From a virus, in the IMG/VR virus record IMGVR_UViG_3300031801_000037, positions 1 to 20,544 of that record: a stretch of 20,544 bases of DNA. One strand, given 5' to 3'. Under the pieces are notes generated by a model that was not told the DNA's origin, ran no database searches, and worked only from the letters and a program-made list of their open reading frames with translations. Of the stretch, positions 11,957 through 20,536 are shown in pieces (position 1 is the stretch's first letter; the number at the start of each line of letters is the position of its first letter). The translations under genes were made by a program, and so were the position numbers.

Positions 11957-14728
11957 CTATTTTTTACCTTTATCTTTTTTCTTTTCTGTTTTTTTAGGTG
12001 TATCATATTTGTTCTTATTTTCACGTGCAATCTGTAAATTTTTATTAGCTACTTCTTTACGTGTTGCCATTTCTTCTCTGCTTATATTTAATTTAGCTTG
12101 ATTATTTGCATTATCAATGGCTGATTGCTCTCTTTTGAGATTCATTTGCTCTCTATATTGATCTTGTTCTCTTATATCTTTCATAGCATCCTGAAAGTCA
12201 TTCACTTGATTTTCATCTACATCTACTGTAGATCCATACCCTGCTGATCTTATTTCTGCAACAGTAATATCTTTTTTCCTTTCTTTATCATTCTCTTCAG
12301 CTTGAAATTGTAGCTTCATTTTTTCTTCTTCTTGTTTAGCTGCTATTTGTTCTTGTTGCATTTGTTGTTGAGTCTGCATTTGTTCTTGTCTTTCAGCTTT
12401 TACTTTCTCTTCAGAACCTTTAAGAATATCTGTAACTTCTGATATTGAATCAGATTTAATAATACTTCCTAAATCATATATAGATGCTCCTGATGTATTA
12501 TTAGTTAATGCTAATTGTTTTAACTGATCTAGAATAGCTCTATGATTAGTTCTTGTTGTACAAAATATATTAAAATCTCTAAGTAAAAGTTCTGTTCCAT
12601 TTATCTGAAAATTTACTTTTTCTGCTTCTGAATTGATATATGTTAACCTTACACTAGGATTATTACTATAATAATACTGAGCCAGATCAGTTCTCATTTG
12701 ATGAACTCTTGGCATTAAATTATCTGAATGATTAGTAAAATATATTTCTGTTTGGGCATATGATGCCTGTAATGCTTGTGTCACTCCTGTTGCTGTCTTT
12801 TGTGCAATGGGTGTACCCATTCTTTCTGGATTTACTCCTATTGCTTCAAAACATTGTTGTTTAAAATGATTAGCTAACTGAATTCTTGTCATTAATCTAT
12901 TTGTTTGTTCAAGATTTAAAGTTTGATAATGCTGGAAATTAGTTGCATTCTCTGTATTAGTAATAGATGTATCTAAAGGCATCATACCAAAATCCTTCAT
13001 AGCTACATAAGCTTTAGCAAGATTATTCTTTCCCCAATCTTCTCCCATTGAATGACGTGGTAATGCATTCTGATCAAACATAATTACTGTACCTAATTCA
13101 TCAACTAGGATATCAGCTATCTGATTATTAACCATATTATAACCAACCTGATATGCTTTCATTAAATCAACTAAAGAAGTAGATCTTGTATTTCTATCTG
13201 AGAATACTCTACCTTCTAAAGGAAGTTTACATCCATATAAACTATTATCTCCTTTAAACTGAAAAGGTATACGTGTTGGTTTTTGTCTGTTTATTCCTAA
13301 ATAAATAGGATTAAGATTATCTGACATATCTTGTCTCCAGAAAGCAGGTAGATTTGGTCCAATTTTTACACCTCCCCATACTTCATTTATCCAGAGCCAA
13401 TCAATATGTTCTCCTTCTACTAAATTATCTTTTGTTTTATTTTTAAATAAAGATGTATTATAAACAGCTTGAGTATTTATTTTATATGCTTCATCTATAA
13501 TCTCTTGATAAACATGTCCATCTTTTTTAATACATGTTAAATGACCTACCTTTCTTTGAGTTTTCCAATAAATAGTTGAAACTCTCATTAATTCACCTTG
13601 TCCCCACAAATGAACATCATCTCCTTCACTTAATATCCAACTTAATATATCACCTCCTCCTTCTGGAGTTGCTTGCCAATTACTAACAAATTGTCTATAT
13701 GCTAAAGAAGGAGAACCAACATTCCATTCATGTGATCTTGTAGGATCATAAAATGAACCATCATTCTGAACTCCTTGTAATTGATACATTGCTGATCTGG
13801 CTGGATATATACGTTGTAATGACTCCAATTGTTTTTCTGACATAAGATATCCATACCTATCTATAACATCTGATACAGTCATTAAATCTATCTTTCCTGC
13901 CCAATTACTATCTGCTATATATCTAATATCTGGACTTTTTTGGTAAAAGGTTAATACTGGATTCCATAATTCCACTTCATAATCATCTTCTAATAGACGG
14001 AAGTGCCAGAACTCTCTATCAGTAATAAGCATATCACGGAATCCTCTCTCCTCAAGTTCTTTCATTTTAAATCTTTCCTCATCTACATTAAGTTGATGTG
14101 ATGCCCATTCTTCAACCATACTTCTATATGACTTAGAAAAGAAGTCTTCTATTTCTGGTAATGTTTTTAAATTTTCTGGATCTAATTGTTGTTGTGCTTC
14201 TTCACTTCCTGGATCCATTCCCATTGAAACCATCTTCATTACTAATTGCATTTCTGCATCAGCAAGTAAATTTTCTTCAATGAGTGTTCTTTTTTGTTCA
14301 AGCATCTCATTATATGAAGTATCATCAACAGCTCTAAATTGTACTTTAGAAAATCTTTTACTAAATTCTCCTGAAAGAACATTGATTACATTAGGTATAA
14401 TAGGATAGAATTTTAATTCTAATGCTGTTGTATCCTCTTTAGTGAGTATATCCATAACATCTTTATACTCATTATCTTCTTCAACTATATAATCAGTTTT
14501 ATCTATTATACCTTTTGCAAGTTTATAATTCTTTAATAATTTTCTTGAATTGAGTCTTAAAAATTGTAGACCTTGTAATTCTAACCAATCTAAATTCCAT
14601 GCAGTCCAATCTTCATCCTTTTTTTTAGATGATAAGAACTGTAAGGGTTGTGTTAAACTACTGGTTGTTGGATAGCCACTCTCTGCTTTGGCCCCAGCTT
14701 TCATTTGCATTGCATTAAATACCTTCAT
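11957..14728 (-). CDS. Portal protein
   Basis: A 923-residue protein that forms the portal ring through which TerL drives DNA. The N-terminal 700 residues are a mixed alpha/beta core, rich in Trp (for example WTAWNLDWLELQGLQFL near residue 41, and EHIDWLWINEVWGGVKIGP around 445). The C-terminal 154 residues (770-923) are a long Gln/Glu/Lys-rich coiled coil, like the barrel extension of P22-type portals, and end in a basic KKTEKKKDKGKK tail. Size, place next to TerL and four cysteines only fit crAss-like portals. TerL's TAA shares one base with this ATG (TAATG), so translation is coupled. The stop is TAG with no tandem stop; the next in-frame stop is 20 codons on. Confidence 0.88.
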   Translation of the reverse strand: MKVFNAMQMKAGAKAESGYPTTSSLTQPLQFLSSKKKDEDWTAWNLDWLELQGLQFLRLNSRKLLKNYKLAKGIIDKTDYIVEEDNEYKDVMDILTKEDTTALELKFYPIIPNVINVLSGEFSKRFSKVQFRAVDDTSYNEMLEQKRTLIEENLLADAEMQLVMKMVSMGMDPGSEEAQQQLDPENLKTLPEIEDFFSKSYRSMVEEWASHQLNVDEERFKMKELEERGFRDMLITDREFWHFRLLEDDYEVELWNPVLTFYQKSPDIRYIADSNWAGKIDLMTVSDVIDRYGYLMSEKQLESLQRIYPARSAMYQLQGVQNDGSFYDPTRSHEWNVGSPSLAYRQFVSNWQATPEGGGDILSWILSEGDDVHLWGQGELMRVSTIYWKTQRKVGHLTCIKKDGHVYQEIIDEAYKINTQAVYNTSLFKNKTKDNLVEGEHIDWLWINEVWGGVKIGPNLPAFWRQDMSDNLNPIYLGINRQKPTRIPFQFKGDNSLYGCKLPLEGRVFSDRNTRSTSLVDLMKAYQVGYNMVNNQIADILVDELGTVIMFDQNALPRHSMGEDWGKNNLAKAYVAMKDFGMMPLDTSITNTENATNFQHYQTLNLEQTNRLMTRIQLANHFKQQCFEAIGVNPERMGTPIAQKTATGVTQALQASYAQTEIYFTNHSDNLMPRVHQMRTDLAQYYYSNNPSVRLTYINSEAEKVNFQINGTELLLRDFNIFCTTRTNHRAILDQLKQLALTNNTSGASIYDLGSIIKSDSISEVTDILKGSEEKVKAERQEQMQTQQQMQQEQIAAKQEEEKMKLQFQAEENDKERKKDITVAEIRSAGYGSTVDVDENQVNDFQDAMKDIREQDQYREQMNLKREQSAIDNANNQAKLNISREEMATRKEVANKNLQIARENKNKYDTPKKTEKKKDKGKK

Positions 14729-16920
14729 TATCTGAAATTTTTAAAAGGAGTTTTTTTAAATTTCTTTTCACCTATTCTTTTTGTTCTACCTCCCATATTC
14801 CTAAAAGGGTTATACTTTAATTTATATAAATTTTGTGAATTTTCCAACTTATTCCCATCTTCTCTTTCTACTCTTTTCACATAACCTCTATTTGATTGCT
14901 GTACTTTAGCAAATGCTATAAGTGCTGAAAATGCTACAAGTCTATCAACATTAAGCCCTGGAAAATATGCTAACATTTCTTTAATTAACATTTGATCTGG
15001 TATTCTTTCTACTCCAAAGGTAACACTCATTACTTCACCATTCTCATCTGTTGCTTGATCTATTTCTTCTCTTATATATTCAATAGCATAAGATATCAAA
15101 TGACTTTTAAAGAGTGTGCCTGTATTCTTCCAACCATACTCCTGATAAACTGTACTATTAGAACCAAGATCTTTTAAGAATAATATTTGTTGTTTAGGAA
15201 CTAAATACTTTTGTTTTTTTCTTGCAATCATATGCTGAATAAAAAGAGATATATTATTCTCTACTATTGTCCAGGCTTTATACCATTCTATAATTAATTC
15301 AAGTTGTTCATGTGTTTTATTTATATCATCATATCTTCCACACCAAGAAGCTACAATCTTATCCTTTTCTATAAAATGTTCCATTCCACTAGGTGTTTCT
15401 CGTGTAACTTCTACAGGATTCTTGTAAACAAAGATTGAACAGAGTGAGTCAGAAGTAGTTGTCTTTCCTTCTGAGACAGGATCAATAGAAGCAAAATATG
15501 TTAAGAATGGAGGATCTGCAATAGGTCTTTCCCATACTATAAGTGAACCAGTTTTATCTATAGCTTTTCTAGATACTGGAAATTCTGAGATAGGTAATTT
15601 ACTTGTAGTTACTGATTTAATTCCTTTTTCTGTTCTTTCTAGTTTAACCAAATCATATGGATAAGTTTTCTCTTCAATACGTCTTAACTGATGTGATAAT
15701 ACACTTTGAGGAAAGATAGATGCCTTTCTATAGGCAAATGCTTCAGCTATATTAGTTGGCTTCTGGGATATCCTAAGTTGATACTGTTCTGGTGATAGAT
15801 CTTTCTGCCATTGTGCTCTTTCTGTTTTAATAGCTTTTAATGATTGTTCTATAAGTGAATTACCAAATCTATCTATATGAGGAACCATTGACCATTGTTC
15901 TGGAATAAATAATCCTGCTAATCCTATTGTACCTTTATCATCTAAAAGATTTGTTTCTACTGCATAGATATCACTAGCTTCTGGAGATAAGATCATAGTT
16001 TTTAATGGATGACAATGATCCAAATCTCCAACAGATCCAGCAGCTATAAACATTCCAGTGGTTAACATTCCTGAAGACATTGCAGGACGTAAGTATTCAT
16101 ATGTTTCAGACATCTTAGGTGCTATACCTGCTTCTTCATGAAAGAAATACGTACATGGTCCACCTACACCTGTAGTTGCATTCTTTTCAAAAGATGCTCC
16201 CTGAATCTTTGATTTTAATCCTCTAGATGTTTTTCTATTAGCAATCTTTACTTCAATCTGTTGTTGCCATAATAAAACCTTTTCTGGATTACATGGTCTA
16301 TACCAAGCAGTATGTTCATTTAAAAAGGATTTATATTCATCTAAGAATTTCCAAGATCCTTTATCATTTATATAATCTTTCAATGATGCACCTATCTTAC
16401 ATATAGAACCTTCTTCAAACCAAAAAGTATTTAGAAGTTTTGCCATATGAAAATATGATGATGCTATCTGTCTCTTTTTAAGAATAGCTGTATGTCTTTG
16501 ATGCAGTTCTGCTAAGATCTCATAAAGTGCCATATGATATTGTGCATCTCTTATCTTTGCAAAACCATATTTCTTTTCTTCCTTATCAAATATAGGAAGG
16601 AAGTTTAACCACATATAATAGTCACGAGTTATATACCATATATGTTTCTTACCATGATAAATTACACCTCTTCTACATTTATCTTTTTGATCATCCCAAT
16701 AAGTAGTATAATCTTTTGATCTAAAAGGTTTATTACAGTAATAACCATTCTTATTAAAGAACTTTGCTTGTTCATTAAAAAGTAATGAAATTGAACTAAA
16801 ATTATATTGACCTGGTTCTCTGAATAATGTCAATATAAAACTTCTAAAATCTTCTACAGTATTAAAACTTGTAGTAGTCCATTTTCCTTTTTTATATGTT
16901 GGGATATCAGTATATATCAT
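14728..16920 (-). CDS. terL: Terminase large subunit (TerL)
   Basis: A 730-residue packaging motor. The ATPase half has a variant P-loop at 148-156 (KKRQIASSY), a Walker B with catalytic Glu at about 258-265 (YFFHEEAG) and a coupling motif at 290-297 (MFIAAGSV). The nuclease half has the three expected acidic positions: D480 (ASIDPVSEG), E554 (IVENN) and D659 (NVDRLVAFSAL). It cuts concatemeric DNA and drives it through the portal. The gene overlaps the glycosyltransferase gene by ATGA and the portal gene by one base. Length agrees with crAss-like TerL proteins. The last 30 residues are basic (GGRTKRIGEKKFKKTPFKNF). Confidence 0.92.
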   Translation of the reverse strand: MIYTDIPTYKKGKWTTTSFNTVEDFRSFILTLFREPGQYNFSSISLLFNEQAKFFNKNGYYCNKPFRSKDYTTYWDDQKDKCRRGVIYHGKKHIWYITRDYYMWLNFLPIFDKEEKKYGFAKIRDAQYHMALYEILAELHQRHTAILKKRQIASSYFHMAKLLNTFWFEEGSICKIGASLKDYINDKGSWKFLDEYKSFLNEHTAWYRPCNPEKVLLWQQQIEVKIANRKTSRGLKSKIQGASFEKNATTGVGGPCTYFFHEEAGIAPKMSETYEYLRPAMSSGMLTTGMFIAAGSVGDLDHCHPLKTMILSPEASDIYAVETNLLDDKGTIGLAGLFIPEQWSMVPHIDRFGNSLIEQSLKAIKTERAQWQKDLSPEQYQLRISQKPTNIAEAFAYRKASIFPQSVLSHQLRRIEEKTYPYDLVKLERTEKGIKSVTTSKLPISEFPVSRKAIDKTGSLIVWERPIADPPFLTYFASIDPVSEGKTTTSDSLCSIFVYKNPVEVTRETPSGMEHFIEKDKIVASWCGRYDDINKTHEQLELIIEWYKAWTIVENNISLFIQHMIARKKQKYLVPKQQILFLKDLGSNSTVYQEYGWKNTGTLFKSHLISYAIEYIREEIDQATDENGEVMSVTFGVERIPDQMLIKEMLAYFPGLNVDRLVAFSALIAFAKVQQSNRGYVKRVEREDGNKLENSQNLYKLKYNPFRNMGGRTKRIGEKKFKKTPFKNFR

Positions 16921-18605
16921 ACAAATCTATAACCATATCTGGTTTTAATTTTTTTAAATTTTTTCTTTGATTTATCTACTTTAGGTTTAAAAGTGTACAA
17001 TCCCTTTTTTAAATCATTATATGTTAACCCTTCAATATTTCCTATCTTTCTTCCAAATAAACTTAATCCTTTTGATGTAGTTAACATATGAACTAATATA
17101 TTATAATCAAACGTAGCAAATGTCAGAGGATGTTGATGTGTCATTTTTCTATATGTCATTTGTAAACTATCAAGAACATTTTGATGATAAAATGGATCAT
17201 GATGTTTTAAAACATTAATAAAATAACATTCATCAGGAATATGACCTTCCCTAAAAACTGTATCTGTATAATCATTAGCTACTGCTATCTCAGCATGTTT
17301 TCTAGACAATAACATCCATTGTGAACATAAATGAAAATCTTTTAGTTTTTTCATACCTAAAAGTTCTGGTTCTTTTAAAGTATTATGTTTTATCTGTGTT
17401 TTTGTTTTATTAGTTACTATTTTTTGTACCCATGATTTACCATTTAAAGACATTATTTTCTCATAGATATTATGAAATGAATATAAAGGCACACAACTTT
17501 CTGATAATAAAACAAAATATTTATTAGTTTCATCTTTAAGTGCTTCACGTAATAATGAAAGAGTGGCTTTTACTAATCCAACTTTACCCCATTCAGTATC
17601 TACATTATCAGGAACTTGTGCTTGTAATAAAAACTCCTGATCTATATTCTTTATATTTTTACTATGAGCATACATAGTACATCTATCTGAACCATCTTTT
17701 AGAAAGTTATAAATAAGAGATGGTTGATTTAAATCCTCTATAGTAAGAAACATAAAAGCTATTTTAGCTAATTGTGTATCTTGGAATTCTAATGGTTCTT
17801 CATAATCTTTTTTTGGTTTTTCTGGAGTTATAGGAATTTTGATTTTCTCAATTCTAAAGTTTGCATCTTTTTTACCATATTCTGTTTTATCTTCCTCTGT
17901 CCTTACAACCTTGTAATACTTCCTTCTTATTTTAGGTATATTATGCTTTCTTTCAAAATCTATCCAGAATTTTTCTCTTTTTTTCCAATCTTTTATTTTT
18001 GCTAATTCACGTTTACCTCCTTTTTTAGTTGATTCTTTAGGGTTAGTACATTGAACAGCATCTATAATAGCATATCTATCTGATTTATCCCATCCATTTG
18101 CCCAGATATATAAATGATCAATACCCCATCCTATTAATGATGTATCATACATCTTCATTAAATTACTTAATGCTTTCTTTGTAAATAGAGGTGTATTAAC
18201 TTCAATATAATTTGTATATCTAAAAAGATTACCTGGACAATGTTTTGTTATTCTATGAGATATTCTACTTTTTGTATCAAAGGATGGTCCACATATCCAA
18301 AAGCCAAATCTTTCTGACATTATAAATAATGTGTTGATATCTTTTGTACTCATTATAATATCATCATCTACAATAAAGAATCTTTCATATTGACTTAAAT
18401 CTTTTGTTTTATAAATATGTTCAAAATTCTGAAACTTAGATCCTTGTCTCTTTTCAATATAATCTACTTTAGATTTATATCTTTCATATGTTTCTTCATT
18501 ATTTCCATAATATACCACCCATACATCATAATTACGTTTTTTATCTAACCAGATATTATCAAAATTAGTGTTGTCTCCTGCTGATGTAAATACTAAGTTT
18601 TTCAT
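16917..18605 (-). CDS. Fused double glycosyltransferase-like protein (DUF707-like + GT14-like)
   Basis: A 562-residue protein with two enzyme-like halves. Residues 1-200 resemble DUF707 proteins: FFIVDDDIIMS at 76-86 gives the DxD-type metal site (D80-D82), then an Ile-Ser-His-Arg-Ile-Thr motif near 115-120, FRYTNYIEVNTPLFTKKAL and GWGIDHLYIW at 159-168. A charged linker follows (about 200-275). Residues 280-510 resemble the core-2/I-branching GT14 family: YFVLLSESCVPLYSF at 363-377, HLCSQWMLLSRKHAEIA at 425-441 and IPDECYFINVL at 456-466. A basic tail closes it. It would transfer sugars to a still unknown acceptor. It sits 3 bases after the 172-residue gene and overlaps TerL by 4 bases, so it is part of the packaging operon. 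Family assignments are by motif reading. Confidence 0.85.
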   Translation of the reverse strand: MKNLVFTSAGDNTNFDNIWLDKKRNYDVWVVYYGNNEETYERYKSKVDYIEKRQGSKFQNFEHIYKTKDLSQYERFFIVDDDIIMSTKDINTLFIMSERFGFWICGPSFDTKSRISHRITKHCPGNLFRYTNYIEVNTPLFTKKALSNLMKMYDTSLIGWGIDHLYIWANGWDKSDRYAIIDAVQCTNPKESTKKGGKRELAKIKDWKKREKFWIDFERKHNIPKIRRKYYKVVRTEEDKTEYGKKDANFRIEKIKIPITPEKPKKDYEEPLEFQDTQLAKIAFMFLTIEDLNQPSLIYNFLKDGSDRCTMYAHSKNIKNIDQEFLLQAQVPDNVDTEWGKVGLVKATLSLLREALKDETNKYFVLLSESCVPLYSFHNIYEKIMSLNGKSWVQKIVTNKTKTQIKHNTLKEPELLGMKKLKDFHLCSQWMLLSRKHAEIAVANDYTDTVFREGHIPDECYFINVLKHHDPFYHQNVLDSLQMTYRKMTHQHPLTFATFDYNILVHMLTTSKGLSLFGRKIGNIEGLTYNDLKKGLYTFKPKVDKSKKKFKKIKTRYGYRFV

Positions 18606-18608
18606 AAT

Positions 18609-19127
18609 TTACATTTGATCATATGCTAATCCTTGTCCTCCTCTAACTTGACTTTCCTGTTCTTGAAGCATATCTGTAAATGCTCCTTTATAGGATTGTC
18701 TTATTGAATCAAACTTAGAAGCTACATTAGTTAATGATGTAAGATTGCCATCTCTTCCATGTTCAATTGTGGTTGTTTCCATATATCTTGCCATCTTATC
18801 TAATACAGATTTAATACCTTTATATGCTCTAAAGGTTGGAGTTTCATATAATTGCACACATCTCTCAAGAGCATGTGTAATTATAGGATCATCTAATGAG
18901 ATATCTAAGTTAACTTCATCAGTTATAATATCTTCTTTTTCATACTCTGGCAAATTAAAAAATGGATTCATATCTGGACTAGGACAACTCATATAAAACA
19001 AGTATTGTAATATACTCATATGTTCTTTGGGATATTTATCTATAATATTTTTCAGGAATGTTAATGTATAACAATGTTCTGAAGGAATTACTTTCCCATT
19101 TTCTATATCAAATATTCTTACTAACAT
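18609..19127 (-). CDS. Terminase-adjacent protein, small-terminase candidate
   Basis: A 172-residue, largely helical, soluble protein. The N-terminal segment includes LVRIFDIENGKVIPSEHCYT and a helix with ILQYLFYMSCPSPDMNPFF. The C-terminal third is helical and polar (KFDSIRQSYKGAFTDMLQEQ, then a GGQG tail). No DNA-binding helix-turn-helix is clear to me. It lies two genes before TerL, where many phages encode the small terminase that recognises the packaging site, so I list that as a candidate by position only. Its start overlaps the nuclease gene by 20 bases. An unrelated head-assembly factor is possible. Confidence 0.8.
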   Translation of the reverse strand: MLVRIFDIENGKVIPSEHCYTLTFLKNIIDKYPKEHMSILQYLFYMSCPSPDMNPFFNLPEYEKEDIITDEVNLDISLDDPIITHALERCVQLYETPTFRAYKGIKSVLDKMARYMETTTIEHGRDGNLTSLTNVASKFDSIRQSYKGAFTDMLQEQESQVRGGQGLAYDQM

Positions 19128-19947
19128 AATTATCTTTTAACCACATAATAATATTTCTTATTTCATCTTTTAAATAAGGTAATTTATAAATTTTTAAATC
19201 TTCTATCACAGGTTCTCCATTTACTAATTTACTAATAGGATAACCATTCTTATCTGTATCTGCCTGTACAAACTTTACATGTTGTATAGTTAAATCTCCT
19301 ACTTTAAGTTTAGGGTTATGCTTCTTTATAATATACGCATATAAACTCAATTGTATGTTATAATGATTTAAATTACATTCATCAAGATGTTCTAATGGAC
19401 TATACATCTTCTTTGTATTTCCTTCCCAATTAGTATAACCTTTTTCTTTTATTTCTTTATTAGTCTTATAATCTGTTATATTAATTTCACCTTTTACTAT
19501 CTCAACTATATCAGCTTGTCCACAAATTCCTGCAGACTTTAAATAAACTAAATGTTCTGGATAAACTCCTTCTGCAAGTTTCTGATCAGAAGCAATCTTA
19601 ATTCCATTATTATCTATAATAGGTTTAATAATAGGAACTTCTATTCCTTGTCTCTCAATTGTTTTAAAGTCTAATATATCTGTCTCACGTTGATTATGAT
19701 ACCAATTGCCTAAGTTAATAGCTCTTTGTGATTCACCATTCCATGCAGCCAGAATATCTTTTTCTTCCATTCCATACCACTTAGACTTTTTATTCTTTGC
19801 TGATTTTCTTGCTTGAGCTTTAGAATTAAACTTAGGCTTAAACATACTCACAAATGAAGTGACACTGAGCCATTTAATATTCTCCTTTTCAAGATCCTTA
19901 TTTAGACTTTCATATATATGTCCATCTTCTTTAAATATTACTGCCAT
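19108..19947 (-). CDS. PD-(D/E)XK nuclease (RecB/Cas4-like)
   Basis: A 279-residue protein with the RecB-type nuclease motifs in order: H84 in GNWYHNQRE, D146 in GQADIVEI, D159-x-K161 in NITDYKT, and Q199-x-x-x-Y203 in IQLSLYAY. Together they form the metal-binding active site of the PD-(D/E)XK fold, so the enzyme is expected to cut or resect DNA. All key residues are intact. It overlaps the methyltransferase-like gene by 17 bases and the 172-residue gene by 20 bases. Placement next to packaging genes suggests a role in processing or recombining genome ends, although host-DNA degradation or anti-defence is possible. Confidence 0.87.
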   Translation of the reverse strand: MAVIFKEDGHIYESLNKDLEKENIKWLSVTSFVSMFKPKFNSKAQARKSAKNKKSKWYGMEEKDILAAWNGESQRAINLGNWYHNQRETDILDFKTIERQGIEVPIIKPIIDNNGIKIASDQKLAEGVYPEHLVYLKSAGICGQADIVEIVKGEINITDYKTNKEIKEKGYTNWEGNTKKMYSPLEHLDECNLNHYNIQLSLYAYIIKKHNPKLKVGDLTIQHVKFVQADTDKNGYPISKLVNGEPVIEDLKIYKLPYLKDEIRNIIMWLKDNYVSKNI

Positions 19948-20536
19948 TTTCCAAACGTTTAGTAAATTCTTCTGGTGAAATTAGATTTAAAAATAATTTT
20001 CTATATCTTACAAATATAGGATACGTCCAGAAGTATTTATATTTATTTTGATCTAATACTTCTTGTACACCTCTTCTTACAATACCACATCCTTGATCCG
20101 TATTTATTGTAAACATATTTAGATTTGGATTAGTAAATCTTAATTTTACAAATGATTTCCATACAGTTCCATTCCATGATCCTCCATTAGATGTTTCAGT
20201 TTGTCTATGTTTAGATGCTGGATTACAATCATGAATTACTATAGTTCCTTCTTCATTTAATATTTTAAGAGATTCCTTTATATCTATATCCACTTGATAT
20301 TCTTGATGAAGTCCATCTATAAAAATAATATCATACATTTTTTTATTATCCTTAAAAAATTCATCTGATGTCATAGGATAATTAATTTTTTTTGATAATG
20401 GATTAGGATCAACAGCATCCTTATCTGTGACATTAATCTTATCAAAACAATCTTCAGCTCTCCGTACACCTATTTCAAGATAAATTTTATAATCAAACTT
20501 TTTTATTAAACTATTTATGATATCAAATCTTTTCAT
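19931..20536 (-). CDS. Class I SAM-dependent methyltransferase-like protein
   Basis: A 201-residue protein with a Rossmann-type layout: YLEIGV motif I near residues 19-24, YDIIFIDGLHQEYQV around 68-82 (the DGxH loop of Methyltransf_24-like enzymes), and EEGTIVIHDCNP around 94-105. The acceptor is unknown; relatives methylate sugars or small molecules. It is the first gene in the window and has 8 bases of sequence before it, so its promoter is not visible. It shares the operon with a glycosyltransferase fusion, which supports a glycan-related acceptor. Confidence in the fold is good and in the substrate is low. Confidence 0.82.
   Translation of the reverse strand: MKRFDIINSLIKKFDYKIYLEIGVRRAEDCFDKINVTDKDAVDPNPLSKKINYPMTSDEFFKDNKKMYDIIFIDGLHQEYQVDIDIKESLKILNEEGTIVIHDCNPASKHRQTETSNGGSWNGTVWKSFVKLRFTNPNLNMFTINTDQGCGIVRRGVQEVLDQNKYKYFWTYPIFVRYRKLFLNLISPEEFTKRLENGSNI

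Follow-up and report, generated by a model that had tools for sequence, protein, structure and literature searches.

The window analysed here, the whole stretch of 20,544 nucleotides of the metagenomic virus record IMGVR_UViG_3300031801_000037, is a 20.5-kb fragment of a virus of bacteria whose TerL and portal genes relate it to the crAss-like phages. Its right-hand part contains the following features; L010 is a related viral contig with which the linker and the last gene were compared.

11957..14728, minus strand: portal protein (phrog_6547, 1.2e-96)
14728..16920, minus strand: TerL, crAss-like terminase large subunit (phrog_6681, 2.3e-60; Crassvirales matches)
16917..18605, minus strand: fused double-glycosyltransferase ORF (562 aa, ATG start, uninterrupted)
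16917..17030, minus strand: basic C-terminal tail and stop codon of this ORF (TGA within the ATGA shared with the TerL start)
17031..17780, minus strand: C-terminal Core-2/I-branching domain (PF02485, GT14), residues 276-525 (PDE 457-459, RK 519-520, no DxD)
17781..17900, minus strand: interdomain linker, residues 236-275, predicted disordered (low pLDDT, low identity to L010)
17901..18605, minus strand: N-terminal DUF707-like glycosyltransferase (GT) domain, residues 1-235 (DDD 80-82, conserved D163 in GWGID)
18609..19127, minus strand: conserved 172-aa gene bounding the insert slot opposite TerL (synteny among examined loci)
19108..19947, minus strand: exonuclease-like gene (PD-(D/E)XK; phrog_298, 7.7e-23)
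19931..20536, minus strand: Methyltransf_24 gene upstream of the exonuclease (PF13578, 2e-7; comparison with L010)

The crAss-like setting proposed in a preliminary description of the locus is confirmed by the two PHROG matches and by the TerL-portal order, which is that of Crassvirales cr1_1; Crassvirales TerL proteins match at about 25% identity. The overlap of the fused gene with TerL, to which the same description had drawn attention, is present, but it is an ordinary four-nucleotide ATGA (16917-16920), of the kind by which neighbouring phage genes are commonly coupled. The fused ORF itself comprises two GT-A-fold glycosyltransferase domains in one chain, a DUF707-like N half and a GT14 C half, and all motifs named beforehand are found in their places: DDD at residues 80-82, GWGIDH at 159-164, LSESCVPL (LSESC-x-PL) from 367, QWMLLSR (QW-x-x-L-x-R) at 429-435, and PDE at 457-459. 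The protein has no strongly hydrophobic segment or membrane anchor, and thus is probably cytoplasmic. It has no match in PHROGs or NCBIfam, and a PDB search with its single sequence returned nothing meaningful.

The C half is a member of the PF02485 'Branch' family (residues 282-497, 100.4 bits against a cut-off of 23.4, E=1.6e-28). Its fold matches those of C2GnT-L (2gam; VIA Z 17.3, 4.0 A, 248 residues) and of human xylosyltransferase 1 (XYLT1, 6eja; VIA Z 16.8), with 236-248 aligned residues for the two structures, and its PDE at 457-459 is aligned with the PDE of C2GnT-L. The Glu of this motif is the catalytic base of C2GnT-L, and a Glu has a comparable role in XYLT1. A DxD motif is absent from residues 276-525, in agreement with the metal independence expected of GT14. 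The proposed GT14 assignment therefore holds by both Pfam score and fold. The likeness to C2GnT-L and XYLT1 extends to the HMM match, the GT-A fold at VIA Z 16-17, the PDE and the missing DxD, whereas the phage-encoded domain is only about 12-17% identical to them, has no membrane anchor and is joined to a second glycosyltransferase; moreover, the enzyme of the window is probably cytoplasmic, unlike Golgi GT14 enzymes.

The N half is a more distant relative of its family. No DUF707 match was obtained for the full window protein (Pfam, E<=1) or for its N half alone (E<=10), and since the protein lies below Pfam detection we call this domain DUF707-like. By tblastn it matches bacterial proteins encoded on plasmids (E down to 5e-16), and these relatives are DUF707 proteins scoring above the PF05212 cut-off. 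In three fused phage homologues (L012, L013 and L015) a single ORF passes the cut-offs of both DUF707 (28.7-29.7 vs 24.1 bits) and Branch (53-60 vs 23.4 bits). Hence the DUF707 likeness, although not detectable by HMM in the window protein itself, is supported through its tblastn relatives and these three homologues. Residues G10, K57, DDD 80-82, N132, E135 and D182 are invariant across 15 N-half sequences, and D163 is nearly so. The domain has a GT-A fold, with ppGalNAcT2 as the best structural match (VIA Z 14.7, 213 residues), followed by TarP and TarS. For DUF707 (PF05212), a putative GT-A family of plants and bacteria, PMC3522684 describes a DxD motif and a proposed downstream catalytic Asp; the DDD of the window protein fits the DxD, and the Asp of GWGID is compatible with the proposed catalytic residue. 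The differences from DUF707 proper are the score below Pfam detection and the junction with GT14.

An AlphaFold2 model of the whole chain, built from a 24-row alignment (mean pLDDT 82, pTM 0.52), contains two confident GT-A domains at about residues 1-235 and 276-535, in line with the two separate folds anticipated, and a low-confidence linker at 238-265 (pLDDT about 30); with a pTM this moderate, the mutual placement of the domains is not fixed by the model. Two GT-A domains per chain are also found in K4 chondroitin polymerase, LH3, COLGALT1 and LARGE1, and Foldseek aligns both halves of the window protein to such enzymes. However, these belong to other families, and the whole-chain rmsd of 17-24 A indicates that only the two-domain plan is common. 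Among viral models, the top Foldseek matches included Core-2/I-branching proteins of giant viruses and one Caudovirales protein.

A single-sequence scan of viral contigs yielded no confirmed relative of the fusion, and relatives emerged only when alignments were used. The alignment scan with the N half matched 44 viral contigs. In seven of them, besides the window, the fusion adjoins TerL, and all seven have the order exonuclease, 172-aa gene, fusion, TerL, portal. The N halves of L009, L010 and L011 are 82% identical to that of the window and near-identical among themselves, and those of L012-L015 are 51-54% identical to it. A scan with the C half added an eighth fused protein, of 608 aa, in L135 (Branch 79.7 bits; DUF707 16.7 bits, below the cut-off; N-half profile match 2.9e-72). 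This viral contig has no TerL match, and the gene lies near those for GT4, GT2 and DXD-type glycosyltransferases, a formyltransferase, an acetyltransferase-like protein and a methyltransferase. GT14 alone was seen in two other viral contigs (L140 and L142). No GenBank phage was matched by the C half. The sole GenBank phage match, MT836403 (labelled Bacteriophage sp.), was set aside, as it looks like a bacterial polysaccharide locus or scaffold; its genes include an ABC exporter, UDP-galactopyranose mutase and an epimerase.

The DNA is of metagenomic origin, so that two separate genes might have been joined by an assembly chimera or a frameshift artefact. We consider this practically impossible, because the homologues carry the fusion: the plan is identical in eight further contigs, with at least six distinct sequences. 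The fusion is genuine, far beyond chance, and its presence in several phages means that the claim rests on more than one genome. The proposal of two glycosyltransferases in one gene is thus upheld, by the uninterrupted ORF in the window and by the homologous ORFs passing both Pfam cut-offs. In L012 (8793-11427) TerL and portal are split into several frames, probably by sequencing errors, with the fusion ORF intact. We found no description of a DUF707-GT14 fusion in the literature searched, which does not prove that none exists; judged by title and abstract, none of the papers found on DUF707 and glycosyltransferases concerned phages.

Several features might indicate that catalysis has been lost in one domain or in both, leaving a lectin-like or scaffolding part: in L012-L015 SES is changed to SADT, about 22 residues are lost between KSW and CSQ and the C-terminal tail is missing, and evolution is faster in the C half than in the N half. 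Such a loss is nevertheless improbable, as PDE and RK of the C half and DDD and GWGID of the N half are retained in the window, L010 and L012-L015. The fusions of the window and L010 share 70% identity, compared with 92-95% for their exonucleases, 172-aa genes and TerL, and the linker is 46% identical vs 82% for the N domain. The whole fusion has a dN/dS ratio of about 0.31, the N domain one of 0.21 and the C domain one of 0.33. The constraint on the fusion is real but weaker than that on the packaging genes, with the reservation that TerL dS is near saturation and ratios between genes should not be over-read.

The preliminary description regarded the gene as part of the DNA-packaging operon. 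This is overstated: the fusion is missing from nearly all close relatives, and is therefore an accessory insert and no property of the operon as such. The alignment scan found it beside TerL in the seven contigs named above; among the best 80 of at least 600 TerL relatives the only carriers were L009 and L053 (the same contig as L010), which form the window's own clade. In most of the other relatives among these 80 a GroES-like gene separates the 172-aa gene from TerL, and in L054 and L057-L059 the 172-aa gene directly abuts TerL. The GroES-like gene is present in 74 of the 84 loci examined; it is missing from the window, L009 and L010, where the fusion fills its place, and it is present beside the fusion in L012-L015. 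In L015 (9449-9727) this GroES-like (Cpn10) gene stands immediately upstream of TerL.

In the TerL tree the fusion carriers form two separate supported clades, so that two changes are needed. In the N-half tree the fused N halves together make up a single clade (96/92), within which the window and L010 group with L135 (95/89) and not with L012-L015. The C-half tree agrees on the grouping of the window, L010 and L135 (89/86) and leaves undecided whether the fused C halves are a single clade. The simplest reading of these trees is one fusion event followed by transfer between phages, which brought the gene to this slot twice; repeated loss may be an alternative history. As the nearest relative of the window copy is a fused gene in the glycan cluster of another phage, the gene probably travels between phages.

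The 'eukaryote-like' character formerly ascribed to the enzyme is not supported. PF02485 Branch was found in 31 of 395 sampled Bacteroidota genomes (ORFs mostly of about 280-345 aa, one of 430) and PF05212 above its cut-off in three of the 395, and the genome collection has 237 stretches that encode a relative of the N half. Bacterial polysaccharide loci often contain DUF707 relatives, beside genes for a flippase, UDP-galactopyranose mutase and glycosyltransferases. Viral GT14 domains branch apart from the sampled bacterial ones, in a tree whose sample did not include eukaryotic sequences. A bacterial source of the fusion itself was sought and rejected: among the 80 best bacterial DUF707 loci not one has a fused GT14 (A3 profile), and no Branch ORF lies at the sites of the few DUF707 matches in the 395 Bacteroidota genomes. 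The fusion has so far been seen in few phages only and in no sampled bacterial genome.

The above analysis suggests, with a probability of roughly 0.48, that the fusion is an accessory, cytoplasmic, bifunctional glycosyltransferase in an exchangeable sugar-gene slot, whose glycan is most likely carried by virion proteins. In the proposed mechanism, the DUF707-type N domain of a soluble cytoplasmic enzyme (GT-A, DDD metal site) would add one sugar, and the GT14-type C domain (metal-independent GT-A, with the Glu of PDE as base) would attach a second one to this growing glycan, probably as a HexNAc or pentose branch; with two apparently intact active sites per chain, consecutive transfer steps are the simplest assumption. 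The two-step decoration of capsid, fibre or host glycan put forward in the preliminary description is thus plausible. The two active sites are recognised by homology; that both work, act in succession and serve a virion substrate is what we infer. No gene for nucleotide-sugar synthesis was recognised in the window, and the donors would therefore come from the host. The fusion would be accessory cargo between the 172-aa gene and TerL, one item of an exchangeable set of sugar genes (other glycosyltransferases, methyltransferases) around the packaging module. Such genes near the slot do vary from relative to relative: in place of Methyltransf_24, L010 has GT2 and Methyltransf_23 genes, with a rhamnosyltransferase-like gene further away, and L012-L015 have a methyltransferase gene between the exonuclease and the 172-aa gene. 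As L010 has a GT2 gene in its position, the Methyltransf_24 gene of the window is probably another exchangeable sugar-modification gene, and the neighbouring methyltransferase genes suggest that the glycan may be methylated.

A glycan on virion proteins, which would change adsorption or shielding, is by itself a tentative proposal with somewhat less than even odds. It is favoured by the location of the gene within the head/packaging module and by actinobacteriophages, in which glycosyltransferase and methyltransferase genes together are taken as a sign of glycosylated virions (PMC13313380, citing Freeman 2023; see also PMC12619734). Mycobacteriophage virions are glycosylated by phage glycosyltransferases (Freeman 2023, as cited in PMC13313380 and PMC12619734), there reported with methyltransferases in related phages; in contrast, the window belongs to another phage group. 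Against virion decoration it counts that genomic position does not identify the acceptor and that the fusion evolves much faster than the genes around it. The bacterial DUF707 relatives in surface-polysaccharide loci fit equally well with modification of a host surface glycan, such as capsule or lipopolysaccharide intermediates at the cytoplasmic face, which would block superinfection or re-adsorption of progeny. A glycosyltransferase encoded between portal and MCP in Gratiaviridae is proposed to modify the host capsule (PMC8008677); that gene also lies inside the head/packaging module of a gut phage, but the phage family is different and the likeness is one of gene position. We consider the host-directed activity possible yet rather unlikely, as the gene adjoins TerL and portal and is presumably expressed late, leaving less time for a change of the host surface to act, and as the protein lacks a membrane anchor. 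DNA is a well-known target of phage glycosyltransferases (cited in PMC12619734), and the enzyme might glycosylate hypermodified bases, as in T4. This is very unlikely: ten relatives, several of 110-120 kb, have no thymidylate-synthase/hydroxymethylase match in a search whose controls were detected; a Tet/JBP search was also empty, but its controls likewise had no match. To our knowledge, neither GT14 nor DUF707 enzymes act as DNA glycosyltransferases.

To return to virion decoration, a more ambitious form of it, which we regard as doubtful, would be a phage-specific DUF707-GT14 family that arose by a single fusion, spread among unrelated phages and makes a branched O-glycan for the virion proteins of crAss-like phages, from an exchangeable decoration cassette in the packaging module. 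The two glycosyltransferase families are known; what is new is a single chain that combines them, and the accessory slot which it fills in crAss-like phages. Outside actinobacteriophages, hardly any phage glycosyltransferases that act on particles are known, and a mobile two-domain enzyme in a sugar-gene slot beside TerL of environmental crAss-like phages suggests that the glycan coat of these phages, or that of the host, is diversified by enzyme swapping. We found no proven DUF707 activity, and the fusion gives this domain a compact soluble form suited to assay.

Other two-domain arrangements were seen in the same searches. One viral contig encodes a sulfotransferase (PF03567) joined to a GT14 Branch domain (L141:4113-5732). 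A GT2-DUF707 fusion with GT2 first occurs in another viral contig (L041:6738-8531), and a DUF707-GT2 fusion with DUF707 first in a Bacillus genome (L159:5992-7485); judging by these predicted proteins, DUF707 recurs in two-domain glycosyltransferases. Finally, in the close TerL relatives L057 (1672-2844), L058 and L059, a 391-aa ORF between the exonuclease and the 172-aa gene has GT2-like (PF13704) and methyltransferase (PF13489) matches slightly below the Pfam cut-offs, apparently another two-headed sugar enzyme in the same module.
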